Shown one piece after another: positions 539 to 14,435 of a stretch of 64,000 nucleotides of DNA (the first letter of the stretch is position 1; every line of letters starts with the position of its first letter). The notes beneath the pieces were generated by a model. It did no database searches. It was not told the DNA's origin and was given only the letters and a program-made list of their open reading frames with translations. The translations under genes were made by a program, and so were the position numbers. Source of the stretch: Hahella sp. (GTDB taxonomy: Bacteria > Pseudomonadota > Gammaproteobacteria > Pseudomonadales > Oleiphilaceae); contig JANQMN010000002.1 of the NCBI GenBank assembly GCA_028280065.1, forward strand, positions 1 to 64,000, given 5' to 3'.

Positions 539-3007
539 TTACTCCATGGAAACTGCCGTGCTTTCACCAAATACCAACTGCACATCCCGGCACTGAAGAA
601 ATGCCGCTGAGTCCTGCCGCAAATATACGCATTTGGTTTCCGCATCAAACCACCAAGTCCCGTAATTCCGCTGTTCCCGATACAGTACACGGCGCATTTC
701 TTGTCCGTCACAGATAACTTTCAGAGGACTAGCGCCTGCAGTATGAACTGCCCACTCGTATTCCTTCCAGTCTGGTGTGTAGTTCCCGGATCGCTGCTTG
801 GTAAGTGAAAACTTGCCATTTTTAGCTACCCAATCCAGGGTGACGATCAAATGCTCCCCGGTCCGATAACCCATGGTTTCACCGTCATCCTCATACCATC
901 GGGCTGAACCGTCTTTTGCGCCTAGAATCTTGATTTGCAGTAAATCGTTTTCGGGTTGCGCGTGATCATATGCCTGATCCAGAAACACGCCGGATCCGAC
1001 ACGCATAAACAGTGGACTGTATTCCAACTCTAGATTCAGCCGATGGGTTTTATTTCCCTCAAAGAGTTTGCCTGTATACCAGTCTTTCCATGTGCCCTCG
1101 GGAAAGTAGAGAGGGTAGTGGGTGATATCCGGCTCGGTGATAGCCAGGGTCAAGAGCGCATCACCAACCATGAAGGCCTGATCCTCATGCCAGCCATTTG
1201 AATCATCCGGAAACTGGTAAACCAATGGTCTGACCAGTGGGTCACCGTCTCGCGAAGCACCATAAGCAAAGCTATAAAGCGTGGGGAGCAACTGATAACG
1301 AAACCTAATCGCCTGTCTGATATACGGCAAAATTTCCCGATACATCCAAGGCTCCGTGACCGTGTTGTCGGCATTCACGGAGTGGATGCAAAACCGTGGA
1401 TGGAAGATGCCGTTTTGCACCCAGCGGAGCAGCAACGCCGGTTCAGGAGACAGTCCGGAAAAGCCACCGATATCCATACCGTTAAAAGCGATTCCGGAGA
1501 GACTTTGACCCAGCATTGTTGCAACATTAAACCGAAAATGCTGCCAACTGCTGGCGTTATCGCCTGACCAGGTTTGAGCCCACCGCTGAATACCGACAAA
1601 ACCGGCGCGACTTAAAATAAACGGACGGGCGGCACTCTGTTCGGTGATGGCATCCCAAGTCGTTTCCGCCATCAGGTTACTCAGGACGGGACGTAGTTTC
1701 TGCAAACTCTCCGGCGTACCATCGGCGTGACAAATTGCATCGTCGTCGTCCGCTTCGAATTCATTATTATCATTCCAGATGGCGGCAACGCCATGCTGCA
1801 GAAAAGCCTTGGAAAGTTGCGTTTGCCAGAGATTTCTGGCCTCTGGATTGCTGAAGTCCACCAAACTCCCCTCTCCTCCCCAAAAATTCACTTTTAAAGG
1901 GTCCTCATTTGAGTGGGACTTTACAAAGGCTCCTGCCTGCCGGAACGTTTCGTATAGCGGATGCTGCGTTAAAAAAGCCGGTTTTACATTGGGCGATAAT
2001 GCAACCCGGCGTTCATTCATTTGCCGGATAAAATGGGCAGCGTCAGACATCTTGCCGGCATTCCAATGAAAGGTGTAGCGCTTGCCGTCTTTCGCTTTGG
2101 AGTAGCCTGACGATAGGTGAAATCCACTGATGGGAATCTGCTGCCGCTGGCATTCGTCAATAAAATTCAACACCGCCGCGCCGGCATCGGCCTCAAGTTC
2201 TGTATAAAACATCGACGACCCCCAATAACCGAGCGAAGCTTTAGTGGGCAGCGCCGGGTAACCGGTCAATGCTACATAGCGCTTGCAAACCTCTCGCGGG
2301 GTTTCGCCCAGCAGCAGAAAGTAGTCGATTAATCCGTCATCACAGCAGAAACTGCTAAATGAACCATAATAGCCGCTTCTTTCGCTGCCTACATCGAAGC
2401 TGCTTGGGCTGGCATTGTGGTAATAGAGGCCGATGCAGGTTTTCGTTTCCGGTTGTAGACGCAGTAGAAAAGGGATGTGTTTATACAACGGATCGCCATG
2501 TTCCGGATCGTAGCCAATGGCATCGGTATTGGTCATTTTAAAGGATCGGCCAGTGCGTTCGAGCCGACCGGCTTTTTCCCCCAGCCCATAGTGAAGATGA
2601 GAATCTTCTCTCTGATGATAATGCCAGCGCCTCAAATTGCGATCCACTTGATAGGCTCTACCAGGCAGATCCCTATACAGAATGGTTTCAGCGGACTTTA
2701 ATTCGAGATAGAAAGGCTGTTGGTGGACGATCAAAGTCTTGTCTGACAGTGGTAGCGTTATCTCCGCGCCAATTAACACAACCGGCATCTGATCTTGGAG
2801 TGCCGCCTTCCAATCAGCCAGCAGACTAGTGTCAGCTTCCTGGGTTGAGGCTAAGCCATAGTTAAGTGGCTGAGAATTATCGAAGTCTACCTGAACGCGA
2901 ATACAGGAAGCGCTTATCGGTACAATCGATACCGTTGCAGCGTCTAGATTGATCTGCAGGCGTTCATGGAGGACTCTGCAACTGAAAATTTGCTCGGGAC
3001 GCAGCAT
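539..3007 (-). CDS. Glycoside hydrolase family 31 (alpha-glucosidase-type) enzyme
   Basis: This 822-residue protein has the architecture of GH31 retaining alpha-glycosidases: an N-terminal beta domain (about 1-230), a TIM barrel (about 240-590) and C-terminal beta domains. The catalytic nucleophile is Asp413 in the motif IWNDNNE. The acid/base is Asp483 in WSGDN, and the FNGMDIGGFSG segment that follows is also typical of the family. No signal peptide is visible, so it is probably cytoplasmic and cleaves alpha-linked oligosaccharides. The exact substrate (maltose-type, sulfoquinovoside or xyloside) cannot be told from the sequence. It lies 16 nt downstream of an EamA transporter on the same strand, so the two are probably co-transcribed. 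Confidence 0.9.
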   Translation of the reverse strand: MLRPEQIFSCRVLHERLQINLDAATVSIVPISASCIRVQVDFDNSQPLNYGLASTQEADTSLLADWKAALQDQMPVVLIGAEITLPLSDKTLIVHQQPFYLELKSAETILYRDLPGRAYQVDRNLRRWHYHQREDSHLHYGLGEKAGRLERTGRSFKMTNTDAIGYDPEHGDPLYKHIPFLLRLQPETKTCIGLYYHNASPSSFDVGSERSGYYGSFSSFCCDDGLIDYFLLLGETPREVCKRYVALTGYPALPTKASLGYWGSSMFYTELEADAGAAVLNFIDECQRQQIPISGFHLSSGYSKAKDGKRYTFHWNAGKMSDAAHFIRQMNERRVALSPNVKPAFLTQHPLYETFRQAGAFVKSHSNEDPLKVNFWGGEGSLVDFSNPEARNLWQTQLSKAFLQHGVAAIWNDNNEFEADDDDAICHADGTPESLQKLRPVLSNLMAETTWDAITEQSAARPFILSRAGFVGIQRWAQTWSGDNASSWQHFRFNVATMLGQSLSGIAFNGMDIGGFSGLSPEPALLLRWVQNGIFHPRFCIHSVNADNTVTEPWMYREILPYIRQAIRFRYQLLPTLYSFAYGASRDGDPLVRPLVYQFPDDSNGWHEDQAFMVGDALLTLAITEPDITHYPLYFPEGTWKDWYTGKLFEGNKTHRLNLELEYSPLFMRVGSGVFLDQAYDHAQPENDLLQIKILGAKDGSARWYEDDGETMGYRTGEHLIVTLDWVAKNGKFSLTKQRSGNYTPDWKEYEWAVHTAGASPLKVICDGQEMRRVLYREQRNYGTWWFDAETKCVYLRQDSAAFLQCRDVQLVFGESTAVSME

Positions 3008-3023
3008 TTCACTATCACTCCGG

Positions 3024-3872
3024 TTAATGGCTATTGCGGATTCGCAACGCTTCGATTAGCGCCACGGAAAGTATGAGAAAACCGCCCAGAAGCGTATTGA
3101 CAGCTGGGATCTCAGACAATATCAGCCAGGCGAAAAACACCCCGTAAACCGGTTGTATAGTCGCTATCAGGCTGACGGTCTTGGTCATAAGACTTTTAAG
3201 ACTGAAGACAAACAGCGTGTGCGGGACCAGGACAAAAATCCAGGCAAGCGCAAGTAACTGCAACCAGTCGATACGGTCGAGATTGTCAAGTTCGGTTTTC
3301 GGTAACGCGATGGGTATTAGAACCAGTGAAGCGACCAGTACCTGATAAAACATCTGTGTCAGGCTATCTATTTGTCTGGCCTTGTAGCGGCTGAGAATAT
3401 TTCGAAGGGAAAACAGCAATGCTGAAACCACTCCCCAGAATATGCCCTGCACCGCCTGATCAGACCACTCGAAGCTTGGCAGCATGATATAAAGACCTAC
3501 CGTTACCAACAGGCCTAAACCGATATCCAGCAGCTTCACCCGCTCTCCGGAGAACAGAGGTTCCAACAGAATGGTAAATATAGGATACGAGTAGAGCGCA
3601 AGAATCGCCAGGCCTACCGTGGAGACTTGCGCCGAGTGGAAAAAACTCACCCAATGACCGGTCATAAGAAGCCCTAGTGTCAGAGCGATGCCTATCTGTT
3701 TCCCCTTAAGCTTCGGCGGTTTCCCAAACAACCACAAAACCGGCGCAAAACCGAGAATACCGACAACGGATCGAAACCAAATCAGCACATCCGCGGGCAT
3801 GGGGATAAGCTTGGCAAAGAGCGCCGTCATAGCCCATAAGAATAGAGCGACATTAAGTGCAATTAGCGGCAT
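3024..3872 (-). CDS. EamA-family (DMT superfamily) transporter
   Basis: The 282-residue protein is almost entirely hydrophobic, with about ten predicted membrane helices arranged as two tandem EamA repeats (about 1-135 and 145-278). This is the standard layout and length of inner-membrane drug/metabolite transporters of the RhaT/EamA type. Positively charged loops such as residues 165-170 (SRYKARQ) separate the halves. Substrates in this family range from amino acids to nucleosides and sugars and cannot be predicted here. The gene is immediately upstream of the GH31 hydrolase, which makes a saccharide or a metabolite of the same pathway a tempting but unproven substrate. Confidence 0.88.
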   Translation of the reverse strand: MPLIALNVALFLWAMTALFAKLIPMPADVLIWFRSVVGILGFAPVLWLFGKPPKLKGKQIGIALTLGLLMTGHWVSFFHSAQVSTVGLAILALYSYPIFTILLEPLFSGERVKLLDIGLGLLVTVGLYIMLPSFEWSDQAVQGIFWGVVSALLFSLRNILSRYKARQIDSLTQMFYQVLVASLVLIPIALPKTELDNLDRIDWLQLLALAWIFVLVPHTLFVFSLKSLMTKTVSLIATIQPVYGVFFAWLILSEIPAVNTLLGGFLILSVALIEALRIRNSH

Positions 3873-4001
3873 AGGTTATTCCAGCAATGCAAGGACTTCT
3901 AAGGCAAAAATATTGCACCCGTTTCCCTGTTTTAAATTAGTCTATACAGAATGTCACTTGCTTTGGACTAATCAAGCCCCAATGTCGAGTTTTTAGGCTG
4001 C

Positions 4002-4120
4002 CATGGCCCATAAACTGAGACCATCGAAGCAGTGGAGCTGCCGCAGTGGAGCTGCCGCAGTGGAACTGTCGTTGAGCCCCCAAGGAAGAGTTTACGGCGT
4101 GTCTCGGTTTATGGGACATG
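4002..4120. repeat. Inverted-repeat element enclosing a triple 14-bp tandem repeat
   Basis: Arms at 4002-4021 and 4101-4120 are inverted copies matching at 18 of 20 positions, with the shared core CCCATAAA. Between them, at 4029-4070, are three consecutive 14-bp units with consensus GCAGTGGAGCTGCC; the third differs at two positions. The element fills most of the 368-bp gap between the EamA gene and regA, and no convincing gene lies in the gap. The arrangement resembles a miniature non-autonomous repeat or a large RNA hairpin. No transposase and no target-site duplication was recognised. Confidence 0.6.
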
Positions 4121-4240
4121 ACAACCAAAGCACTGAATTTAAAAACCTTTTGGCTTATATAAGTGCCATTCTAGCCTATACATAAGTATAAATAATTCGT
4201 ATTGATTATGAACAACAGATAAAAAACCAACTCAGGTAGG

Positions 4241-4762
4241 TTACTTAAGTGCTGGTCTTTTGAATAACTTTCTTTGCAATGTGCGGCGGTGCAAACCCAG
4301 TTCCCGGGCGGTAGCGGAGACATTTCCTTCGTTTCTATTCAATACTTCCTGAATATGTTCCCATTCCATCCGAGCCAGGGACATGGCTTCGTTCTCCAGC
4401 TCTTCCACTTTTCCTCCGGCTAAAGCCGTCAGCAGAGCCTGGGTGTTCACGGGTTTCGGCAGGTAATCATTGGCGCCCGCCTTGATCGCTTCCACTGCGG
4501 TGGCAATGCTAGCATAACCGGTAAGGAGAATAATGCGCGCATTCGGTAACTTCTGACGAAGCGTGGGAATAGCGGGCAGACTATTGTCCTCGCCCACCTT
4601 CATGTCCAGCAGGACATACTGGGGGTGAAAACTGTCCGCCAGTTCCAGGCCCGTACCAACATCAAGGGCATGCCGACAATCATAGCCTTGCCTTTGCAGG
4701 CGTCGCAGCAGAACATCCGCAAAAGCTTGATCATCTTCTACTAACAGGAGATTTTGACTCAT
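4241..4762 (-). CDS. regA: RegA/PrrA/ActR-family redox response regulator
   Basis: The 173-residue protein has a CheY-like receiver domain (about 1-115; phospho-acceptor Asp53 in LLDMK, Thr81, Lys103). A short linker leads to a C-terminal Fis-type helix-turn-helix (about 130-168; NVSATARELGLHRRTLQRKL). The absence of a sigma-54 AAA domain and the typical recognition helix mark it as RegA/PrrA rather than NtrC-like. It is expected to be phosphorylated by the RegB-like kinase encoded 39 nt upstream and to control respiratory or redox genes. It is the last gene of a same-strand run that begins with mbnP. The ATG start at 4760-4762 follows the kinase closely. Confidence 0.88.
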   Translation of the reverse strand: MSQNLLLVEDDQAFADVLLRRLQRQGYDCRHALDVGTGLELADSFHPQYVLLDMKVGEDNSLPAIPTLRQKLPNARIILLTGYASIATAVEAIKAGANDYLPKPVNTQALLTALAGGKVEELENEAMSLARMEWEHIQEVLNRNEGNVSATARELGLHRRTLQRKLFKRPALK

Positions 4763-4801
4763 TTAAATCTATCTTTAGCGTTTTCGGTGACCGGCAGTTA
4801 G

Positions 4802-6073
4802 CTACGCAACTTTGAACGCCACTTCGGCTACCGCTCCGCCTTCGCTATGGTTATACAGTTTTAGTTCAGCGGCAAAACGTTCGAGCGTGGCATGACTCAA
4901 CAAAACGCCCATGCCCAGTCCCTTATCGCTTTCAACCAGTCTGGAGCCTAACTGCAAAAGATTGTCTTCGGAGATACCGGAACCGTAATCGCGGATGCTC
5001 AGCAAAAGCTGATTATTCTTTATCAATCCGGAAAGGCTAATGCGTTCCTGCAAATGCTTGCGGCTTGCCTGCACGGCATTTTGTACCAGGTTAAGTATGG
5101 CAGGCAACAGAGTCGTATCGGCTTGAATGGAGTATCGGTCCGGGTCAGGTAATTCATATTGGACCTGCATATCCGGAAAATTCAGTTGGATCTCTTCTTT
5201 AAGCTCGTCAAACAAACTAAGCAAAGACATTTGCTGTTGTTGGTTCTGTTTCACTTCTTCCGCCATTGCCCGAAAATCCTGCAACCGTTTGCTGCACAGC
5301 GCCAGTTGTGATCGCAGATGCATCAGTGATCCTGAATCGTCATTGGCCTTATCGCCATGGCTTCCAGGCACGTGCTTTTGGTTTGTTCCTTCCAGTTGTT
5401 CGGCCAGTTCTTCCGCAAGTAAACTGGCGGTCCCCAATGGGGTTGCCAGGTGATGGACGAACTGTGCACTGATCGTGCCCAGCGCAACCAGTTGTTCCTG
5501 GCGCAGTTGCTCCTCGCGTAATCGGCTGACGTAGCGGTCTTGTTTATGCATTGCCTGCACCAGTGACGCCACGATCAACACAACGACCATTGCCGACAGC
5601 GCAAAATTCACCCACATTCCCACGAAATGCTGATGAATATCCACATGATGCATTTCCATGGCCGAAATACTTAACAGCAACAGCGTATAAGCAGCAAAAG
5701 CCAGTAGTGTCACTGCAATCAACAACCCTCTTTTCAATGTCACCGCCGCAATGGCCACCGGTAAAAGCAGGAGCGAGACAAAAGGATTCGTCGCACCGCC
5801 GGAAAAAAACAGCAGCAGGGTCAGAAAACTTACATCCAGTAAAATTTGTACGAAATACTCAAAATCATGAATGTTGCGGTTGCTGCGGTAGTACCAGTAC
5901 AGCCCCATATTCAAGGCAAGTTCCACAGCAACGATGGCCTTTAACACCAAGTAGGGTAGTTTGTATTCAAACAGAAACTCAGCCAGTAAAATTGCCAGGA
6001 ACTGCAGGAGGATAAACAGATAACGAAGCTTGATCAGCTTTAGTAGATTTCGATTGGTTTGTAGTTGCGGCAT
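4802..6073 (-). CDS. regB: RegB/PrrB-family redox-sensing histidine kinase
   Basis: The 423-residue protein has about six N-terminal membrane helices (about 15-180), a dimerisation/H-box and a C-terminal ATPase with N, G1 and G2 motifs (LVQNAVQAS, DYGSGI, GLGMG). Two RegB hallmarks are visible: the GGATNPF motif (residues 92-98), known in RegB as the ubiquinone-binding loop, and a cysteine (Cys260 in LALCSKRL) at the place of the family's redox-active cysteine. The phosphorylation site reads HHLATPLG (His207), so the residue after the phospho-accepting His is a second His instead of the usual Glu or Asp. It is followed by its partner regA and preceded, 58 nt upstream, by the MbnPH-porin genes. 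Confidence 0.88.
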   Translation of the reverse strand: MPQLQTNRNLLKLIKLRYLFILLQFLAILLAEFLFEYKLPYLVLKAIVAVELALNMGLYWYYRSNRNIHDFEYFVQILLDVSFLTLLLFFSGGATNPFVSLLLLPVAIAAVTLKRGLLIAVTLLAFAAYTLLLLSISAMEMHHVDIHQHFVGMWVNFALSAMVVVLIVASLVQAMHKQDRYVSRLREEQLRQEQLVALGTISAQFVHHLATPLGTASLLAEELAEQLEGTNQKHVPGSHGDKANDDSGSLMHLRSQLALCSKRLQDFRAMAEEVKQNQQQQMSLLSLFDELKEEIQLNFPDMQVQYELPDPDRYSIQADTTLLPAILNLVQNAVQASRKHLQERISLSGLIKNNQLLLSIRDYGSGISEDNLLQLGSRLVESDKGLGMGVLLSHATLERFAAELKLYNHSEGGAVAEVAFKVA

Positions 6074-6131
6074 GGTTACTTCTGGATTATTGGTTGTTTT
6101 GCAAATGCCAAAATATTTCGCAGGGCAAGCT

Positions 6132-7370
6132 TTATAACAGTTTTCGTTGCCAGACTAAACCGATTACCCAACGATTATGACTGGTGGTCTCGTTGCTCCC
6201 TGCGGTAGCCGGCAAACTGTCATCGGCTACCCACTCGGCGCGCAAGGCAAAATCTTCATGGAAGCTCCAAAGCCAGGCCAGACTCAGTTTCTCCGGCTCA
6301 AAACCGTCATTATATAAACCGGCCTGTTGTACGAAAGTCAGGGAAGTATCGCGAAAATCGTTGTCGCTACTCAGCCGTTCATATTGCGCCGACAAACGAT
6401 GCTGTTGCCAGGCAACGCCGAATAACAAACGGGTGCCTTCTACCTGACTATCCAGTTGCGCGGAGGAGACCGGGTCCTGCAGTTCGCCCTCGATATCGGC
6501 ACGAATCCACTCAACAGCAGCCGTTAACAGTAAGCCGCTAACATCTATACCGACTTCGGCGAATGCACCCGTCATCAGCGTATCACCGCTAAAAGACAAA
6601 TCCGGCTGCTCGGTTGTGCCGGAATCCAGATGATGGTCACTTTCATAACGCCCATTCCGACGTTGCTCAGCCTTACCCATCATCATCCATCCTCCCGTGC
6701 GAAGTTGCACCTCACCAACTTCCTGATTGAAATGCATATAAGTACTGGCACCGCCAGCGCCGGATGTCGCCGGAAAACTATCGCCATCCCATGCTTCCAA
6801 GCCCCAACGATGGGTATCCCAAATCAATTCTGCCCGGCCGCCGATATCGGTGAAATGCCGGCCAAAGAATACATCTGCCAGCAAGGGTGCCTCGCTGTAC
6901 AACGAAGTTGAGGCATGGTGTGACGCGGTCGCTGTTGCCAGGCTGGTCATTTTGCCGATAGCGAAAGACCAGCGGGGTTGTGACAATAAGGAAGCCAGAT
7001 TATTCGCGGGTAACTGCGCGCTGAAATACAAACTCTCGAGTTCGAACTCCGTTTCACTATCATGTTGGTGGGCACTGATTTTTGCTTCGGCGAAGTAATC
7101 GTCGGACACATGGAATACGCCATTGAGCTGGGAATCGTCCAGACGCGCACCCTGCTCTGCCGGAAATGCCTCTCCTCCTAACATGATGCCGGGGATTTGC
7201 CAGGATTCGCCGTCGTCGATGGCATTATCGCTGCGGTAGGTAAAAGCAGCACTGGCATTTATCCCTTGCGGTGGGGGATCGTAGGATAATCCATGAGCTC
7301 CGGATAACTGACTGACCGACCATAGAACGGGGAGGAGTGACCAAGGCACAGCGAAGAAAGAGGTTTTCAT
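6132..7370 (-). CDS. Outer-membrane beta-barrel protein linked to mbnPH
   Basis: This 412-residue protein starts with a signal peptide (about 1-28, cut after a GAHG-like segment). It continues with alternating amphipathic strands rich in aromatic girdle residues and ends in a hydrophobic WVIGLVWQRKLL strand, as expected for an outer-membrane barrel of about 16 strands. A resemblance to LbtU-type siderophore porins is possible but not certain. Its ATG overlaps the stop codon of the MbnH-like peroxidase (ATGA overlap), so the two are translationally coupled. Context suggests transport or anchoring of a metal, possibly copper, together with MbnP/MbnH; this is inference. The specific family is not recognised. 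Confidence 0.75.
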   Translation of the reverse strand: MKTSFFAVPWSLLPVLWSVSQLSGAHGLSYDPPPQGINASAAFTYRSDNAIDDGESWQIPGIMLGGEAFPAEQGARLDDSQLNGVFHVSDDYFAEAKISAHQHDSETEFELESLYFSAQLPANNLASLLSQPRWSFAIGKMTSLATATASHHASTSLYSEAPLLADVFFGRHFTDIGGRAELIWDTHRWGLEAWDGDSFPATSGAGGASTYMHFNQEVGEVQLRTGGWMMMGKAEQRRNGRYESDHHLDSGTTEQPDLSFSGDTLMTGAFAEVGIDVSGLLLTAAVEWIRADIEGELQDPVSSAQLDSQVEGTRLLFGVAWQQHRLSAQYERLSSDNDFRDTSLTFVQQAGLYNDGFEPEKLSLAWLWSFHEDFALRAEWVADDSLPATAGSNETTSHNRWVIGLVWQRKLL

Positions 7371-8536
7371 TGGGGTTCGATAAATGGGTTTGAAAATTTG
7401 GGATTGGTAACAAATTCGTTATCGGTAAGCGCATGTAGAAAAGCTATAACCGCCTCAATCTCCTCTTCCGTTGCATCGAACTGCCGAATCAAGCCGGATT
7501 TAAGTGGACTAAGGTTACCATCCCCGGCATTCGGCCCGAGTTCCAGCAATCGCCCGCCCCTGGCGTAATGCTCGATTACTTCACGCAGCGTCGCGATACT
7601 GCCGTCGTGCATGTATGGCCCTGTGAGTGCAATGTTGCGCAGGTTCTGGGGTCGGAACAGGCCTTTATCGGCAGGGTCGTGCGTCAGATCATATAACCCC
7701 TGATCTTCAACGGGATACCCGCCGTTACCATCTACGTTATATAAACCATTGTTGAAAAATGGAAATTGAATCGTATCAAACGAAGTATTGGCATCACGGT
7801 AGGAGACGGAAAAATTAATCCCGCCATGGCAATGGAAACACTCGAACTTTTCACCGTTAAACAGCTGAAAACCTTTTATCTGCCGCTCTGTCAGCGCACT
7901 CCGGTCTCCCATTAAGTAGCGATCGTAAGGGCTCCCGGCACTAATCATTGTTCTGACAAAGCTCGCCAACGCAAAGATTATTTTGTTGATACTGGCGCCG
8001 CTGTTACTTTCCGGAAATGCTTCCCGAAACATTTCAACGTACATGGCATCGTCGTCAAAGCGGCTCAGGACTTCATCGACAAAGGCATCGGTGACGCCCA
8101 GTTCGATGGGATTTTCAGCGCGAATCGGAACATTCAGCTGATCTTCCAGCTCCAGAAAACCATCATTACTCCAGGTGAAAGTGGTGTGATAAACCACATT
8201 GGCTAAACCCTGGCTGTTTCTGACCAGCGCGTGTCCGGTGGAACCAAAGGGGGTTTCAACACCATCCGCAAAGGCCAATTCCTGAAGATGACAGGAGGAG
8301 CAAGACTGTGTTTCGTTCGCAGACAGCCGGGTATCGTAGAACAAAAAACGCCCCAGCTTTATTTTTTCAGGCGTCAGCGGATTAAAATCAGGGACATGAG
8401 GCACCGGCATATGGTCCGGCAGAGCCAGCATTTCCCGCAGGCTCTGTTGTTGGCCGGACTCGGCAATCATAGTCGAGGATTGGCCACAAGCGACCAGCGT
8501 CGACGCTATAACGAACAACGTCAGATACTTGAACAT
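7367..8536 (-). CDS. mbnH: MbnH-like diheme cytochrome c peroxidase (metallo-mystery pair)
   Basis: The 389-residue protein belongs to the bacterial diheme cytochrome c peroxidase/MauG superfamily. Two c-type heme motifs are visible: CSSCH at 79-83 and CFHCH at 233-237. A typical C-terminal segment GPYMHDGS (about 306-313) follows. The N-terminus looks like a lipoprotein signal with Cys17 in the lipobox (LVAC). In studied pairs MbnH uses a high-valent diheme state to convert a tryptophan of its partner MbnP into kynurenine, making a copper site. The partner gene lies 65 nt upstream in the same orientation, which supports MbnH over a plain H2O2-scavenging peroxidase. It should act in the periplasm. 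Confidence 0.85.
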   Translation of the reverse strand: MFKYLTLFVIASTLVACGQSSTMIAESGQQQSLREMLALPDHMPVPHVPDFNPLTPEKIKLGRFLFYDTRLSANETQSCSSCHLQELAFADGVETPFGSTGHALVRNSQGLANVVYHTTFTWSNDGFLELEDQLNVPIRAENPIELGVTDAFVDEVLSRFDDDAMYVEMFREAFPESNSGASINKIIFALASFVRTMISAGSPYDRYLMGDRSALTERQIKGFQLFNGEKFECFHCHGGINFSVSYRDANTSFDTIQFPFFNNGLYNVDGNGGYPVEDQGLYDLTHDPADKGLFRPQNLRNIALTGPYMHDGSIATLREVIEHYARGGRLLELGPNAGDGNLSPLKSGLIRQFDATEEEIEAVIAFLHALTDNEFVTNPKFSNPFIEPQ

Positions 8537-8601
8537 AATTGCTAAACCGCGATCATCGGAACAGCTGACATTAAAAACGATCCTGCGACCGCAACCCCCG
8601 T

Positions 8602-9558
8602 TTATTCCATGCCAACGACTTTATTGCTGCTGGAATCGGCCGAACCGTCTTCACCATTGAGACCAAAATTACTGAAAATCGGTCCGCAGTCCGGCTGCGT
8701 ATCGCTGGGAGCAGAATGACAGCTGACCGTCGGAGCACCGCCTTCATTGGCCGTAAAGTCTAGGTTCGCCAGTAACTGCTGAATATTGATAACGACGGCA
8801 TCGACGGCCGGATTAAAATTACTCAGCTCAACGGCTGGGGTATTGACCAAATCACACTGTTCCTTACCTTCCAGTGCCAGAATACCATCGCCGCCGCAGC
8901 CACGACTGCCAATATGGAGGTAACCCTCTCCTGGCGTCCCGTTTACATCTTCTATGGCGAAATTCATCACAAAGTGACGGTAGCCCGACGCCCATGACCA
9001 ATACATCTCGTTAAGGGGAGACGGTGCGTCTTCCGCCGTATTCGTGGCAATTACTTCCTTCATCAGCGCCTGAGGCACGCCGAGATCAAAGGTTATTCTG
9101 CTGATATCGGTGTCGGTGACAGATCCTGTGAGTCGGTTATTCGTGCGCGCCGTACCCTCACTAAAGGCAATGGCGTCAGACTGACAGGAACCGGTGGCGT
9201 TACTGGTCAAATCAATCAGACCGACAAACCCCTGGTCGTTTTGATACTGAAATTCGTTACTGTCCAGAGTCAACTCCACCTCGTCGCCATGAACGTTAAA
9301 TAGCTTGATATTGCTCACATAAAAGCGCAGATCGCTTACGCCCACAGCGGTATCGGCGGAAGGCCCGAATCCATACAACATGGTATCGCAACTTACTTCT
9401 TCCACCCCGCTGAGAGCCTTAAACGTCAGGCTGAAATCGCTGGTTTGAGCATCAGTCGCCGGAGGCGGATTATCACTGTCAGAACTGCCGCCACAACCCA
9501 CCAAAGCGATAGTGGCGATAACCGGTAAGATCAATTTATTTATTGAGGAATGCTTCAT
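8602..9558 (-). CDS. mbnP: MbnP-like copper-binding lipoprotein (metallo-mystery pair, four-Cys motif)
   Basis: The 318-residue protein has a lipoprotein signal (LVGC, Cys22) and the features of the MbnP family. These are paired cysteines (VSCDTM, near residue 57, and GSCQSD), a GSRGCGGDG segment, a C-terminal SCHSAPSDTQPDCG motif, and the signature MYWSWASGYRHF at 185-196. In characterised MbnP a tryptophan of this WSW motif is oxidised to kynurenine by MbnH and contributes to copper binding; here the candidates are Trp187 and Trp189. It is the first gene of the run mbnP-mbnH-porin-regB-regA. The protein should be periplasmic and membrane-anchored. No methanobactin genes are visible in the window. 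Confidence 0.85.
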   Translation of the reverse strand: MKHSSINKLILPVIATIALVGCGGSSDSDNPPPATDAQTSDFSLTFKALSGVEEVSCDTMLYGFGPSADTAVGVSDLRFYVSNIKLFNVHGDEVELTLDSNEFQYQNDQGFVGLIDLTSNATGSCQSDAIAFSEGTARTNNRLTGSVTDTDISRITFDLGVPQALMKEVIATNTAEDAPSPLNEMYWSWASGYRHFVMNFAIEDVNGTPGEGYLHIGSRGCGGDGILALEGKEQCDLVNTPAVELSNFNPAVDAVVINIQQLLANLDFTANEGGAPTVSCHSAPSDTQPDCGPIFSNFGLNGEDGSADSSSNKVVGME

Positions 9559-9705
9559 CGTTAATCACTGTGTTGTTTATAGTTGTATTCAATTTCCCAG
9601 GAAACTGGGGCAGATTTTGGTGAACGGTCGCTTAGCACGCTTTCATTGTTTTTGATTTTCTTTGTTAGACCGGGCTAGTTTAACAACGGGAAATTTAGTG
9701 TGGGA

Positions 9706-9722
9706 TGCGGCAAATTGCCGCA
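9706..9722. promoter_or_regulatory. 17-bp palindrome upstream of the mbnP operon
   Basis: The sequence TGCGGCAAATTGCCGCA has perfect 8-bp arms around one central base. It lies about 150 bp upstream of the mbnP start, in the 362-bp gap after the minus-strand lipoprotein gene. It could be an operator for a dimeric regulator of mbnP or a short RNA hairpin. The regulator is unknown to me. Apart from this, I see no gene in 9559-9920. Confidence 0.45.
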
Positions 9723-9920
9723 CTGTTAGAAGTTCCCGCACATCGCAGGTCGATTCAGTGATTTCAGAGCGCATCACTTTTCGGCAAATAGACAACAACG
9801 ATGGTGGGGTGAAGCCTGATTTTCTCCGGAAGGTCCCCTAACAAAGAGGGCCAATGATCTTTATAAGGGCTGATTCGGCACAGGCGAACGCTTATGGGGG
9901 GGTGTGGATTCAACTGAAAG

Positions 9921-10679
9921 CTATTGAACCACGAGCGTGAGATTCTTCAGCGTCCTTATCCGATAGGATTTCATCGAACCGCCTTCGCCAAATCCATCCG
10001 ACAGCGAACCCGATCTTTGCCTGGTGAATCGAAAATCGACTTCGCAGTTTTCGTCGCGATTAACGCCTTGCATGTTTTCCAACCGGTTATCAAAAAGAAT
10101 TTCGAAGTAGCCGTCGTCGGAAATGGTCGTTTCCTCCGAATCAATGACTTGGCCGCCTCCCAAGCTGACGCAGGTAAGGGTTGTCAAGACCTTGATGGAA
10201 TGGTCAGGATCGTCCGGCGTCCAGGTGATGACGGTAGGCACGCTGGAAAATAGCGTATCGTTCCTTTCCGGTAAGGTGATATCAAACCCCGCCGCCAAAG
10301 TCAGTCGCGAGTTCAAGATGTCGGATTGGTCGTTTCTATACAGGTTAAAAACAAACTCGGCTTCATCGGTGCCTACATCGATGTACAGTTGGTAATCAAT
10401 GTCCAGGAAATCGACATCCCGTTCCAATTCGCGGGTAATGCCGTTGACGCTGACGTCGATGTATTCGCCGTCGACCAACTCCACATTGGTGCCGTTTTTC
10501 CCGCCGACGTTGATTTCAGCGACCAGGCGGGTATTCCCCGTATCTTCCTCTGTCGCGACAAACTTTGCATATAGCCCCTGATTGGTGACATTGGTAGAAT
10601 CCGTGTCTTCGGTACTGCCACAGCCGCCGACAGCCAACAGCATGGCGATTAAAGGCAAACCTATGCTCGTTTTATTCAT
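9921..10679 (-). CDS. Lipoprotein of unknown function
   Basis: The 252-residue protein starts with a lipoprotein signal (lipobox VGGC, Cys20) and continues as a soluble, Asp/Thr-rich, beta-strand-rich domain. There is a pair of cysteines in the second half (LTTLTCVSLGG and ENCEVDF) that could form a disulfide. A good Shine-Dalgarno sequence (AAGGAGG) precedes the ATG. I do not recognise a family. It sits between the Fur-controlled heme operon (divergent) and the mbnP operon (same strand), so a role in surface metal handling is possible. The shared 473-bp divergent region with Fur boxes could regulate it as well. Confidence 0.7.
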   Translation of the reverse strand: MNKTSIGLPLIAMLLAVGGCGSTEDTDSTNVTNQGLYAKFVATEEDTGNTRLVAEINVGGKNGTNVELVDGEYIDVSVNGITRELERDVDFLDIDYQLYIDVGTDEAEFVFNLYRNDQSDILNSRLTLAAGFDITLPERNDTLFSSVPTVITWTPDDPDHSIKVLTTLTCVSLGGGQVIDSEETTISDDGYFEILFDNRLENMQGVNRDENCEVDFRFTRQRSGSLSDGFGEGGSMKSYRIRTLKNLTLVVQ

Positions 10680-10898
10680 GACGTCCTCCTTGGTGTCCTA
10701 ACTTTTTTACTATGATCTTGTTGGGATTTAGCGCTACGGAATCGCAAGTTTTCCTTAGCTCATTGTAACAATTAATTCATTCTCTACATTAGGCCATAAG
10801 AAATATTTAATCCAAAATCTCCAGGCAACATTGATTTTTTTCTCATCAACGCTTTATTCTTTACCTGTCGGTTTGAAGTTAACGGGTCAAATTGACAA

Positions 10899-10924
10899 GC
10901 CGGGGAGCTGGGGAGTTCCCCGGC
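10899..10924. other. GC-rich hairpin in the lipoprotein/hmuR intergenic region
   Basis: Perfect 8-bp arms (GCCGGGGA and TCCCCGGC) with a 10-nt loop lie in the 473-bp divergent gap. No long U-tract follows on the plus strand, so a classical terminator is doubtful. The rest of the gap holds the Fur boxes nearer hmuR. A 70-codon plus-strand frame overlapping the hairpin does not look coding. Confidence 0.4.
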
Positions 10925-11082
10925 GCCCTTTCCTCTCGTTGAAGTTCATTTTCCTGGCTCCTTATTCTCAACAAATACCCTGTATCAAGCAGCTTTTCGC
11001 GACCTACGAATCGGTCAACATTTGTGGCGGAACCGGAGCCTAACTTTTCGATATAAATTATCGTTCGATAATCAATATTAAT

Positions 11083-11135
11083 TGAGAATGATTATTGACA
11101 ATGATTGATAATTACTTAATGATAACGATTCTTAT
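11083..11135 (+). promoter_or_regulatory. Tandem Fur boxes upstream of the heme uptake operon
   Basis: Two good matches to the 19-bp Fur box (GATAATGATAATCATTATC) are visible: 11083-11101 (TGAGAATGATTATTGACAA) and 11117-11135 (TAATGATAACGATTCTTAT). A further overlapping half-match lies between them (AATGATTGATAATTA), and more AT-rich repeats lie just upstream. They sit 18-70 bp before the hmuR ATG, where Fur-Fe(II) would block transcription. This predicts expression of the whole hmu operon under iron starvation. Confidence 0.85.
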
Positions 11136-11152
11136 TTGCATTTTACGGATCA

Positions 11153-13192
11153 ATGACGACGTTGCGCTACACCTCTCTCTTGACCTTACCAATTCTAGTC
11201 GTTTCAGTTTCTATGCCGCTTGGTACAAACGCTGCCGAGGAAGTTGAGGAGCTTGTTGCCGCCAGCGAATTTGAAACCATGGTGGTCACCGGAACCCGCA
11301 CCCAAAAGCCAATCCTTGATACTCCCGTCAGAACCGAAGTAATTAGCAGACAACAGTTAGACGACCAACATGCCAGAGATGTGAAAGATGCGCTGGAGAT
11401 GTTACCTGGCGTGGTATTAAGGGCGATTCATGGGAAAAGCGGCTATGAAGTCTGGATGCAGGGATTTGACAGCAACCGGGTCAAAATTCTTATTGATGGT
11501 GAGCCCGTGGCTACTAGCACCGGATCTACCGTCGATGTTACCCAAATCAACAGCCTCGAAATAGAACATATCGAGATTGTGAAGGGGGCGGTTTCTGCGT
11601 TGTATGGCAGCTCGGCCATGGGTGGTGTCATAAACATCATTACCCGGTCGGTTGCCGAGGATTTTGGCTACGAGGCCAAGCTCGAAGGCGGTAGTTTCGG
11701 AAAGGATAACCTTAGCGAGAAACAGACAGACATTACCAGCCGACTAGGCTCAGGATCAGTTCAGTATGGCGCGGAGCATTACTACGCCCGGCTGGGGCTC
11801 ACCCTGCGTGACAGTGATGGTTTTGACGACACTCCAGACACCTGGGGGTCTCAGGGTCCTGAAGGAACCAGGTCCACCGGGGACCTGAAACTCGGCTGGC
11901 GACCAACTGATGGTCAGCGTTATGAGTTCAATGGTAATTATTACGAGGAAGACTTACGCACGCGCACTGCAACAAACGCTGGCGGCAAATACATACTGCA
12001 GCATAAGGATGAAGTTGCCGAAAGAACTCGCCTGGGATTACGTGCCTTTTGGGATCAAAAGAACTCGCAGATCAAAGCCAGTATTTTCAACGAAACCTTT
12101 GACAATACCACCTATCAGGATGTTTTAGCGACGCCGGAAAAAGAAAACCGCAGAGATTCTGAGCATCAGCGGACCAAAGCATCGATTGATGGAAATTGGA
12201 ATGCTTTCGAAAATCATCTACTCAGCCTGGGCACGGAATACTACCAAGAAGAACTGTCCCAGGTAAAAGACGGTGTTGTTGAGGTTCCGGCAGATACGGA
12301 CCACAACAGCGTTGAACTGTATGTTCAGGACGATATCTTTCTCACCGACAGCCTGGAAATTCTTCCCGGCATACGCGCTCAACGCGATAGCGACTTTGGC
12401 TACCATACTGCGCCGAAAATTAATGGTCGTTATGATTTCCAGGTCTCAACGGAATGGGAAGGATTCTTTCGAGGCGGCCTCGGTATGGGTTATCGGGTTC
12501 CGAATCTGAAGGAACGTTATTATATTTTCGACCATAGCCATCTGGGCTATATGGTGATCGGCAATGCGGATTTATCCCCTGAAGAGTCCACCAGCTATCA
12601 AGCCGGGTTTGGTCTTTTTAGACTTAGCGATGCACAACTTGAAACCAGCCTGGATACAAACTTCTTTTACAACGACACCAAAGATCTGATCGAAACCGTA
12701 TTTAATGAGCCGCTGACTGCAGTGCGCGAAGACAATGTCAGCATCCATAGCTATCTCAATATCGCTTCCGCTCGCACCTATGGTGCAGAGATTTCGCTAA
12801 GTCATCAGTTTAGTGAGGACTTATATATCACAGCAGGATATACCTGGACTCGCGGGGAAGACGAATCCACCGGAAAAGATTTGCCCAACCGTCCAGAGCA
12901 CCAATTAAAGACAACCCTAAGGTATGCCGGCAATCATGCTTGGCTAGGGAAATTCAATGTCATTCTGAATCATTTGTATCAAAGCTCCGAATTTGTCGAT
13001 CTGGAAAACCGTCGAAAGTCCGGCGGCTATCACATGCTCGATCTGAAAATCACAGTCCCGGTCACTTCCGGTCTCCAGTTCTATACCGGTATCGAGAATT
13101 TAACCGACGAGCAGCGCGATTTCGCCGATCCCGACGATCAGGGTCCGATAGAGGGACGTTACATTTATTTGGGTTTGTCCCTGAAAGGCTAG
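11153..13192 (+). CDS. hmuR: TonB-dependent heme/hemoprotein receptor HmuR
   Basis: The 679-residue outer-membrane receptor has a signal peptide (about 1-27), a probable TonB box region (ETMVVTGTR near 43-51), a plug domain (about 55-165) and a 22-stranded barrel. It carries a variant of the heme-receptor FRAP/NPNL signature: YRVPNLKERY followed by GNADLSPEES, with His residues between them (FDHSHLGY), as in HmuR/HemR/PhuR-type receptors. It is the first gene of a seven-kilobase heme operon under Fur boxes. Its function would be binding heme or hemoprotein and moving heme into the periplasm using TonB-ExbBD energy; those genes are not in the window. Confidence 0.9.
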   Translation: MTTLRYTSLLTLPILVVSVSMPLGTNAAEEVEELVAASEFETMVVTGTRTQKPILDTPVRTEVISRQQLDDQHARDVKDALEMLPGVVLRAIHGKSGYEVWMQGFDSNRVKILIDGEPVATSTGSTVDVTQINSLEIEHIEIVKGAVSALYGSSAMGGVINIITRSVAEDFGYEAKLEGGSFGKDNLSEKQTDITSRLGSGSVQYGAEHYYARLGLTLRDSDGFDDTPDTWGSQGPEGTRSTGDLKLGWRPTDGQRYEFNGNYYEEDLRTRTATNAGGKYILQHKDEVAERTRLGLRAFWDQKNSQIKASIFNETFDNTTYQDVLATPEKENRRDSEHQRTKASIDGNWNAFENHLLSLGTEYYQEELSQVKDGVVEVPADTDHNSVELYVQDDIFLTDSLEILPGIRAQRDSDFGYHTAPKINGRYDFQVSTEWEGFFRGGLGMGYRVPNLKERYYIFDHSHLGYMVIGNADLSPEESTSYQAGFGLFRLSDAQLETSLDTNFFYNDTKDLIETVFNEPLTAVREDNVSIHSYLNIASARTYGAEISLSHQFSEDLYITAGYTWTRGEDESTGKDLPNRPEHQLKTTLRYAGNHAWLGKFNVILNHLYQSSEFVDLENRRKSGGYHMLDLKITVPVTSGLQFYTGIENLTDEQRDFADPDDQGPIEGRYIYLGLSLKG

Positions 13193-13244
13193 CACCTGAT
13201 AAAAGGTCGTTAGAAAACACCTTATTCACTCAAAAGGAGCCACT

Positions 13245-14435
13245 ATGAAAACTAACAATTTTACTCACCCGTTGCTTATGAAGTTTAAACTGCTAGCGAT
13301 ACCGGCGAGTTTAACGCTGTTGACGGCATGTTCCGGTGGCGGCAGTTCCAGCAATAATGATGCTGAACCTACTCCCGATAATGGCGACATAGGGAATGCT
13401 TTCACCGCGATGATCGTCGATGCCAGCGACAATGGGGCATATCAATATCTAAATCTGAACAGCGGCGAAATGCTAACTCTGACTGAGGAAGCTGTTGCCA
13501 GCTCAACTGCATGGCATATTGCATTCCGCCGCAATAACCTGAAAGTCAATGGTGGTGCTTCTGGCAGTGGAAATGTCGCGGTTGCATTGGCTGTCAGCCA
13601 AGATGATTTTTATGATGCCGAGGGCAACGTTGACGCCAACGTGTTCCTCAATGCTACGCCAGACTCAGAAGAGGAACACATTTTAGCTGCTTTTGACGTG
13701 ACGACACTGGACTTCCAACAGGACATTCTGCTCCCAGCCATAGCAGGTAGCAGCGAGATGGACGGAACCCTTATGGACTTAGGCTGGTACAACTACGATG
13801 TTGCTACTCACCAAATTTCAGTGAATACAGACAATGGCTGGATCGTCAGTTCGGCTGAAGGGTCAAGCCATGCAAAAATGGTAGCAACAGCAGTCAACTA
13901 TGAGAGTGGTGTCGGCCTGGATGCCAGCTTCCTGTTCAGCGTTGAAACTGATACAGCTACTGGATTTTCCCAGGATGTCACATTCAATGCATCTGTGCCT
14001 GCGTCCGGCGGTGAACAATGTTATGACTTCGATTCTGGAAATTCAGTCGAGTGTGATACTGCCGAGTGGGACGTAAAATTAAAACTGGATGGGCGCGACT
14101 GGAATCTCTGGACTAATGGCGGCGTGACCGGTAGTGGCTCTGCTGGTGCTTTCGGACCATTAGCCACAGACTCCTGGGATAGCTATGTCAGTTCTGTAGA
14201 CGTACCTACCAACCACTTCATCACAGATGCATCAGGCGGCTTGTTTGAAAATCATCCCTGGTATGCCTACAACCTGCAGGGACAGCACAAACTCTGGCCC
14301 AACTACCGTGTGTATGTCATTGATACCGACACGACGAATCCGGACTCAATGAAATACAAATTACAGGTAACCAACTATTACTCAGACGCTGGTGTCAGCG
14401 GGTACCCTAACATTCGTTTTATGGCTGTTGAATAA
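13245..14435 (+). CDS. hmuY: HmuY-family heme-binding lipoprotein with two HmuY-like units
   Basis: The 396-residue protein has a lipoprotein signal (LLTAC, lipobox Cys about residue 28) and a strong Shine-Dalgarno AAGGAG six nt before ATG. The HmuY hallmark WHIAFRRNNLKVNGG appears near 89-103. A second, more divergent copy appears in the C-terminal half (WDVKLKLDGRDWNLWTNGG), and the end has the typical YKLQVTNYY strand. Porphyromonas HmuY is a single domain of about 216 residues, so this is nearly double length. It would capture heme at the cell surface and pass it to HmuR, encoded just upstream. Confidence 0.85.
   Translation: MKTNNFTHPLLMKFKLLAIPASLTLLTACSGGGSSSNNDAEPTPDNGDIGNAFTAMIVDASDNGAYQYLNLNSGEMLTLTEEAVASSTAWHIAFRRNNLKVNGGASGSGNVAVALAVSQDDFYDAEGNVDANVFLNATPDSEEEHILAAFDVTTLDFQQDILLPAIAGSSEMDGTLMDLGWYNYDVATHQISVNTDNGWIVSSAEGSSHAKMVATAVNYESGVGLDASFLFSVETDTATGFSQDVTFNASVPASGGEQCYDFDSGNSVECDTAEWDVKLKLDGRDWNLWTNGGVTGSGSAGAFGPLATDSWDSYVSSVDVPTNHFITDASGGLFENHPWYAYNLQGQHKLWPNYRVYVIDTDTTNPDSMKYKLQVTNYYSDAGVSGYPNIRFMAVE

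Follow-up and report, generated by a model that had tools for sequence, protein, structure and literature searches.

The 64,000-nucleotide stretch of Hahella sp. contig JANQMN010000002.1 analysed here (hereafter the window), part of a 6.68-Mb genome, carries a run of genes for an MbnP-like protein, an MbnH-like diheme enzyme, an outer-membrane barrel, a RegB-like sensor kinase and a RegA-like response regulator. A regulatory link between RegBA and this mbnPH-porin operon is very likely on sequence grounds: RegBA and the barrel recur beside mbnPH in other genomes and a RegA-type operator lies upstream of mbnP. The same observations support the proposal, made in an earlier sequence-only reading of this DNA, that MbnPH is tied to respiratory control, and the operator argues for direct control of mbnP by RegBA. 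Taken as a whole, the account that we favour, and consider probable, is that of a copper-acquisition operon under RegBA respiratory control that was gained horizontally. Copper acquisition for respiration, as a separate part of this account, is slightly favoured.

MbnP loci were drawn from nine relatives, 80 named genome contigs and 43 stretches sampled by phylum and order, leaving 126 distinct loci, the window included, after removal of six duplicates and of L090, which is without MbnP. A locus was regarded as linked when RegB and RegA each scored at least 100 bits in the same stretch, i.e. some 10 kb around mbnP; some stretches are short, and a RegB-RegA pair could escape notice there. Fifteen of the 126 loci were linked, compared with about 0.0045 expected per locus, a background derived from 48 RegA genes (at least 180 bits) in 49 MbnP-bearing genomes of around 215 Mb (rounded sizes) and expressed per 20 kb. 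Besides the window itself, linkage was seen in 2 of the 9 relatives, in 11 of 76 named loci and in 1 of 40 new stretches. The named scan retained the best 80 of 380, confirmed using the window MbnH, and is therefore biased towards kin. Its 11 linked loci compare with 0.34 expected (Poisson 1e-13), and 8 of 66 named loci are linked when the window's MbnH clade is excluded. Among the sampled genomes, with the window excluded, the figure is 3 of 48 (0.0014). Linked loci are spread over gamma- and betaproteobacteria and Myxococcota, and a fewest-changes count requires no fewer than 12 switches of linkage state over the MbnH tree.

Gene arrangement varies among the linked loci. The regBA genes lie downstream on the same strand in the window, L041, L042, L050, L236, L069 and L096, and upstream on the same strand in L061 and L114; they are divergent in L034, L038 and L118, and convergent in L059, L086 and L088. 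Taking each regB open reading frame (ORF) from its first possible start, that of L236 begins at the base directly 3' of the barrel stop, that of L069 overlaps mbnH by 4 bp and that of L041 follows the barrel after a gap of 13 bp. The sequence-only reading had asked whether the neighbourhood recurs elsewhere; it does, both for RegBA and for the barrel. Of 120 adjacent MbnP-MbnH pairs, 68 have a match to the barrel profile, in some cases weak, after MbnH, and so do all nine relatives. Among individual loci, L114 and L241 have two mbnH genes in tandem, L104 and L065 contain a second MbnP/MbnH pair, and the MbnP of L042 (8949-9960) runs across two frames, seemingly through a frameshift or an error in sequencing.

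The palindrome upstream of mbnP in the window, GCGGCAATTTGCCGC, conforms to a 15-bp pattern, GCGRC-N5-GYCGC, which was employed for searching either exactly or in a relaxed form (no more than one mismatch, no further than 250 bp from the MbnP match). The RegR box of Bradyrhizobium is likewise a 15-bp GNGRC...GNCGC repeat. The spacing is distinctive: exact half-sites five nucleotides apart are present in 19 of 89 upstream regions, while each other spacing from 0 to 15 is found in 0 to 4. Exact matches are roughly 14-fold denser in the mbnP upstream regions than in the remainder of these loci, and the relaxed form occurs in 55 of 126 loci as against 223 of 2333 random control windows. Even the unconstrained positions are biased, with A at position 6 in 45 and T at position 10 in 36 of 54 sites (MbnPs of at least 180 bits). 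Sampled MbnP genomes that bear RegA have the operator in 25 of 38 cases, those without RegA in none of 11 (Fisher 9e-5); this comparison covers 49 of the 52 sampled genomes with fetched MbnP loci, G811, G725 and G714 being omitted for their low-scoring MbnPs, and the 11 RegA-less genomes were scored in full. In L041, the nearest relative, an exact operator heads the run, followed by a PCuAC gene as the first of the run. A second exact operator is found in L096 (12370-12384), where it closely follows the stop codon of the barrel and precedes a DUF1775 gene and regBA.

The pattern also accommodates GCGACCGTTCGTCGC, the site at ccoN (cbb3 oxidase) assigned to Rhodobacter capsulatus RegA by chromatin immunoprecipitation sequencing; other sites in the same table are less perfect (PMC5359404). 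For the PrrA protein of R. sphaeroides, which is without a strong consensus, a degenerate GCG inverted repeat with variable spacer has been proposed (PMC4263372). The window genome contains three exact GCGRCANNNTGYCGC sites. Since the other two lie inside ORFs, no wider RegA regulon is claimed, and the idea that RegBA regulates this genome at large was set aside, there being only one exact intergenic site in a genome-wide search that covered exact sites only.

Only one kinase in the window genome fits the RegB model from end to end (176.5 bits), the next (85.1 bits) matching in its kinase part only. Residues G93, N96 and P97 of the quinone motif, the phospho-histidine and C260 are invariant in all 14 aligned linked RegBs (of 15; that of L118 is unaligned). 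Judged by motif and position, the motif and Cys260 would be equivalent to the ubiquinone site and Cys265 of the R. capsulatus protein (PMC8191878, PMC9147068). Seven of the 14 have Glu as the residue next to the phospho-histidine. In the RegBs of the window, L041, L042 and L050 its place is taken by His, Gln or Arg; across these four and L059, L114 and L236 it is His, Gln, Arg or Lys. The window RegA contains the Pfam domains Response_reg and HTH_8; D53 and most columns of the helix-turn-helix (HTH) are invariant in 13 aligned RegAs, and the recognition helix, HRR(T/S)LQRKL, is kept in all 13.

Copper-related families occur among the neighbours of the module. The counts are raw, without control neighbourhoods, and refer to 94 upstream and 85 downstream neighbours hand-picked from 100 and 109 listed; those omitted were mostly long or from low-scoring MbnP loci, and the window's own neighbours are among those unscanned. 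PCuAC, with 4 of the 94 and 6 of the 85, is the commonest family; CopD and DUF2946 are each found three times upstream, and SCO1/SenC twice downstream as well as upstream in L038. In the latter locus, SCO1/SenC lies between regB and mbnP; in L096, DUF1775 lies between barrel and regB. On the side of the regulators, R. capsulatus RegA binds copper, and in group 1 regA and/or regB share a transcript with senC (PMC9147068).

In the mechanism that we propose, copper shortage would cause heme-copper oxidases to fail and hence the ubiquinone pool to become reduced. RegB, in which the quinone motif and the redox Cys are observed, would sense the reduced pool and phosphorylate RegA, which would then bind the palindrome upstream of mbnP and raise the whole run, regBA included. 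MbnH would turn the leading Trp of the WxW motif in MbnP into kynurenine by oxidation, after which MbnP would hold a copper ion at the outer membrane. The His-bearing barrel might admit copper or hand it on, and periplasmic chaperones such as PCuAC and SCO1, whose genes lie beside the module in several relatives, would deliver it to the oxidases. Several links of this scheme are inferred: the import of copper, its carriage by the barrel, the direction in which control runs, ubiquinone sensing by RegB, co-transcription of the run and the conversion of Trp to kynurenine.

Several observations weigh against this account. When one mismatch is allowed the spacing contrast is smaller, at 38 of 89 regions for a spacing of five versus 14-25 for other spacings, and genome-wide the operator pattern equals its reversed control, with three sites each. 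A kinship-aware test of RegA against the operator yields four starred independent pairs, of which 2.3 on average agree and 0 disagree, and is not significant. Association between linkage and operator is loose, the site being found in 10 of 15 linked and 45 of 111 unlinked loci; in five linked loci, L041, L061, L069, L118 and L236, the 250 bp ahead of the MbnP match contain no site even when one mismatch is allowed. For 111 of the 126 loci the RegB-RegA pair is not in the stretch seen, L079 having RegA alone. The proteins themselves fall short of the curated NCBI cut-offs: the window RegB scores 176.3 bits with its best model, NF033792 (ActS/PrrB/RegB; cut-off 350), and the window RegA 158 bits with NF033791 (ActR/PrrA/RegA; cut-off 250). 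The RegB and RegA of the sequence-only reading thus stand as regards best-matching models, motifs and architecture, not as regards these thresholds, and we name them RegB-like and RegA-like for that reason. The window RegB, moreover, has HH where HE is usual, and the RegA of L118, a linked locus absent from the alignment, reads HRRTLQYKL, with Tyr for the last Arg. Finally, Cys156 ahead of the HTH is a copper-linked feature of group 1 RegA (PMC9147068). A Cys is found close to that position in the RegAs of L061, L069, L079, L086, L088 and L118; that of the window reads EVLNRNEGN there, so control via Cys156 is not expected.

Could the palindrome then belong to another regulator, the RegBA linkage reflecting a general clustering of respiratory and copper genes? 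Its presence in many loci without RegBA in the stretch, and the four linked loci that lack it with no other site seen at the head of the run, would fit such an explanation, which we nonetheless judge improbable given that the palindrome matches a published RegA site, that it is absent from all 11 sampled RegA-less genomes, that the RegA recognition helix is so uniformly kept in the alignment (L118, unaligned and with its Tyr, aside) and that regB ORFs abut or overlap the module in several lineages. Mere adjacency in one genome can be dismissed with far greater assurance. A 58-bp gap does separate barrel and regB, and most mbnPH loci are without RegBA in the stretch seen, but recurrence across loci, far above background and in varied arrangements, leads us to reject the chance juxtaposition of the five genes. 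A different function is also conceivable, namely copper defence: under low oxygen, the condition in which Cu(I) is at its most toxic, active RegBA would have MbnP sequester copper at the outer membrane and the barrel export it. We consider this unlikely, since MbnH-type chemistry requires an oxidant and the commonest neighbour, PCuAC, is an oxidase chaperone. The loosely similar MopE and CorA systems, furthermore, are made under copper scarcity (PMC3423442, PMC3912023, PMC3621798). Defence would be in keeping with the presence of CopD among the upstream neighbours, and R. capsulatus RegB is held to phosphorylate RegA only anaerobically (PMC9147068). Copper acquisition under RegBA control remains the interpretation that we prefer.

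Table 1. The five-gene run of the window and its predicted operator.
Feature	Coordinates	Strand	Remarks
mbnP-like gene	8602..9558	-	predicted lipoprotein (LVGC lipobox); WSW motif W187/W189; CHS and LMK replacing CMS and LNH
mbnH-like diheme enzyme	7367..8536	-	two CxxCH; predicted lipoprotein
16-stranded porin-fold barrel	6132..7370	-	start overlaps mbnH stop; His26 is predicted mature N-terminus; invariant His101, His246
RegB-like sensor kinase	4802..6073	-	GGATNPF quinone motif; Cys260; HH replacing HE at phospho-histidine
RegA-like response regulator	4241..4762	-	receiver and Fis-type HTH; without equivalent of Cys156
RegA-type operator, palindrome GCGGCAATTTGCCGC	9707..9721	-	149-163 bp upstream of mbnP ATG; predicted from sequence

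The ORFs of the run were all confirmed in the order and on the strand originally described (Table 1), and the initial assignments of an MbnP-like protein with a WSW motif and of a diheme MbnH-like enzyme are borne out by family models: MbnP scores 225 bits with TIGR04052 (cut-off 140) and MbnH, with haem sites C79-H83 and C233-H237, 478.5 bits with TIGR04039 (cut-off 362.85). The respective profiles match structures 7l6g (E 1.6e-59) and 6e1c (E 2.8e-103), which we take to be the MbnP-MbnH pair of Methylosinus trichosporium OB3b. In the Methylosinus pair, kynurenine arises when MbnH oxidises the first of the two WxW tryptophans of MbnP. Both window proteins look like lipoproteins, the lipobox Cys (C22 in MbnP, C17 in MbnH) being invariant in 10 of 10 aligned members.

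Intergenic spacings are 65 bp between mbnP and mbnH, 58 bp between barrel and regB and 39 bp between regB and regA, while mbnH and the barrel gene share the 4-bp ATGA overlap expected from the first description. A consensus scan found no minus-strand promoter-like site between mbnP and regB, and the sole minus-strand terminator-like site within the run (8592-8577, three G-C pairs) lies just after mbnP; in the region as a whole, sigma-70 and terminator matches were both fewer than the shuffle mean. No MbnB or MbnC is present among the ten products scanned (539-14435), the rest of the genome being unsearched and small peptides (mbnA) unexamined, and a methanobactin operon here is unlikely. Beside the cassette, at 9921-14435, are plus-strand genes for a TonB-dependent receptor, whose best NCBIfam model is a haem/haemoglobin receptor, below cut-off, and for an HmuY-family protein; an unassigned lipoprotein-like gene (9921-10679, minus strand) stands between these and the cassette.

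The putative copper site of MbnP varies in a concerted manner. Most MbnPs, 94 of 126, have N-H together with C-M-S. Met replaces that Asn in 14, every one of which lacks the next His, and 13 of the 13 that are readable at the other place have C-H-S there. Five more combine N-H with C-H-S, and 13, many of them low-scoring, show some other combination. A 2021 study of MbnP reportedly found His, Met and kynurenine at the copper site. If the residues considered here are those ligands, their covariation within one clade suggests that the window's MbnP clade has exchanged its His and Met ligands, and this exchange would represent a natural experiment on the MbnP copper site. The five proteins with both the His of N-H and C-H-S are those of L076, L082, L089, L099 and L120, from Nannocystis and a Polyangiaceae metagenome-assembled genome; their copper sites possibly contain a pair of His, like that of MopE.

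As the sequence-only reading had supposed, the third gene encodes an outer-membrane barrel. The predicted model is a confident 16-strand porin, with a mean predicted local distance difference test (pLDDT) value of 90.2, and Foldseek retrieves OmpT of Vibrio cholerae (6ehe; E 1e-11, template modelling score 0.51 by query and 0.66 by target, 13% identity). By sequence, a search of the PDB with the barrel profile gives a best E of only 0.26, the window barrel matches no Pfam or NCBIfam family, none of 42 members matches NCBIfam, and one of ten relatives weakly matches Porin_O_P of Pfam (E 0.0046). The profile finds no match in the Myxococcota and Chloroflexota loci sampled. It does match 103 of 369 gammaproteobacterial genomes, mostly far more weakly than the window protein, and the barrel therefore presumably belongs to a wider, uncurated porin family.

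Histidines are conspicuous in the alignment of 42 barrels: His26, His101 and His246 are invariant, His152 is present in 39 and His248 in 41, the window having Leu248 but His247. His26 directly follows a signal-peptidase-like site, 40 of the 42 barrels fitting a simple -3,-1 rule. When a like rule is applied to both sets, 55 of the 62 barrels in which any signal site is recognised have His directly after it, compared with 181 of 1587 other ORFs. An earlier rule based on the first AxA site, which placed only 7 of 28 barrels and 15 of 349 other ORFs at His, was superseded by this equally applied one. On our reading of the model by strand order, His101, His152 and His246 would face the outside and the N-terminus the periplasm, so that the histidines need not form one site.

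The history of the cassette is suggested by the MbnH tree. In a quick tree, window MbnH pairs with that of Paraglaciecola L041 (74% identity; Shimodaira-Hasegawa approximate likelihood ratio test 87), inside a 14-row group with support 100 and apart from L032 and L033 of the same genus as the window. The genomes of L032 and L033 have no RegA above 100 bits, and four other same-genus species have RegA at 235-240 bits and no MbnH over the cut-off. This distribution, with the grouping of MbnH outside the genus, suggests that the window cassette was acquired horizontally from an alteromonad-like donor. The MbnPs of L033 and L087 are identical across the 150 residues compared. The flanking EamA gene has only distant matches in the genus (around 26% identity), and an empty site is consequently not demonstrable. 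A plasmid search returned 260 records with MbnH relatives, all below 60% identity and 46-48% at best among the matches listed; no close plasmid copy of the cassette is thus seen.

The operator and the recurrent RegBA linkage together provide a concrete hypothesis for the purpose of MbnPH, namely oxidase copper supply, with the need sensed as respiratory failure. The histidine porin becomes a candidate entry route for copper through the outer membrane. A more ambitious picture, which we put forward only tentatively and with some doubt, is of a full pathway for copper uptake at the outer membrane, commanded by respiration and travelling as a single cassette: a His-site porin, a kynurenine copper protein whose His and Met ligands have changed places in this clade, its maturing enzyme and a dedicated quinone-sensing switch. 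If true, it would include a copper-specific porin, with N-terminal His and conserved loop His, of a kind not described in the literature searched.

Conservation of MbnPH pairs extends well outside the methanobactin producers (PMC3621798). That paper makes no mention of RegB, two-component systems, sensor or histidine kinases, response regulators or porins. MbnP or MbnH together with RegB was not found in the literature among the matches listed, though neighbourhood figures in the 2019 and 2021 MbnH/MbnP papers may show RegBA; the term 'metallo-mystery pair' had no literature match. Compared with the MbnP-MbnH pair of 7l6g and 6e1c, the window proteins are alike in passing the family cut-offs and keeping WxW and two CxxCH, and differ in the porin and RegBA attached to the run and in the swapped His and Met of MbnP. 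MopE/SACCP of Methylococcus capsulatus and CorA/CorB of Methylomicrobium album similarly unite an oxidised-Trp copper protein with a diheme peroxidase (PMC3423442, PMC3621798), copper in MopE being bound by two His and the kynurenine formed from its oxidised Trp (PMC3423442), although the MbnP sequence is not markedly similar to either (PMC3621798). With RegB-SenC-RegA of R. capsulatus and RoxSR of Pseudomonas the window system has in common the quinone motif, the redox Cys, the receiver plus Fis-type HTH, the RegA-type operator and a copper chaperone gene adjoining RegBA (PMC9147068, PMC5359404); it is distinguished by the tie of RegBA to an mbnPH operon, the scores below cut-off, HH rather than HE and a RegA without Cys156. 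Lastly, the barrel shares its 16 strands with general porins such as OmpT (6ehe) and OmpF, but stands apart through its low identity to 6ehe and its invariant histidines, one of them at the predicted mature N-terminus.

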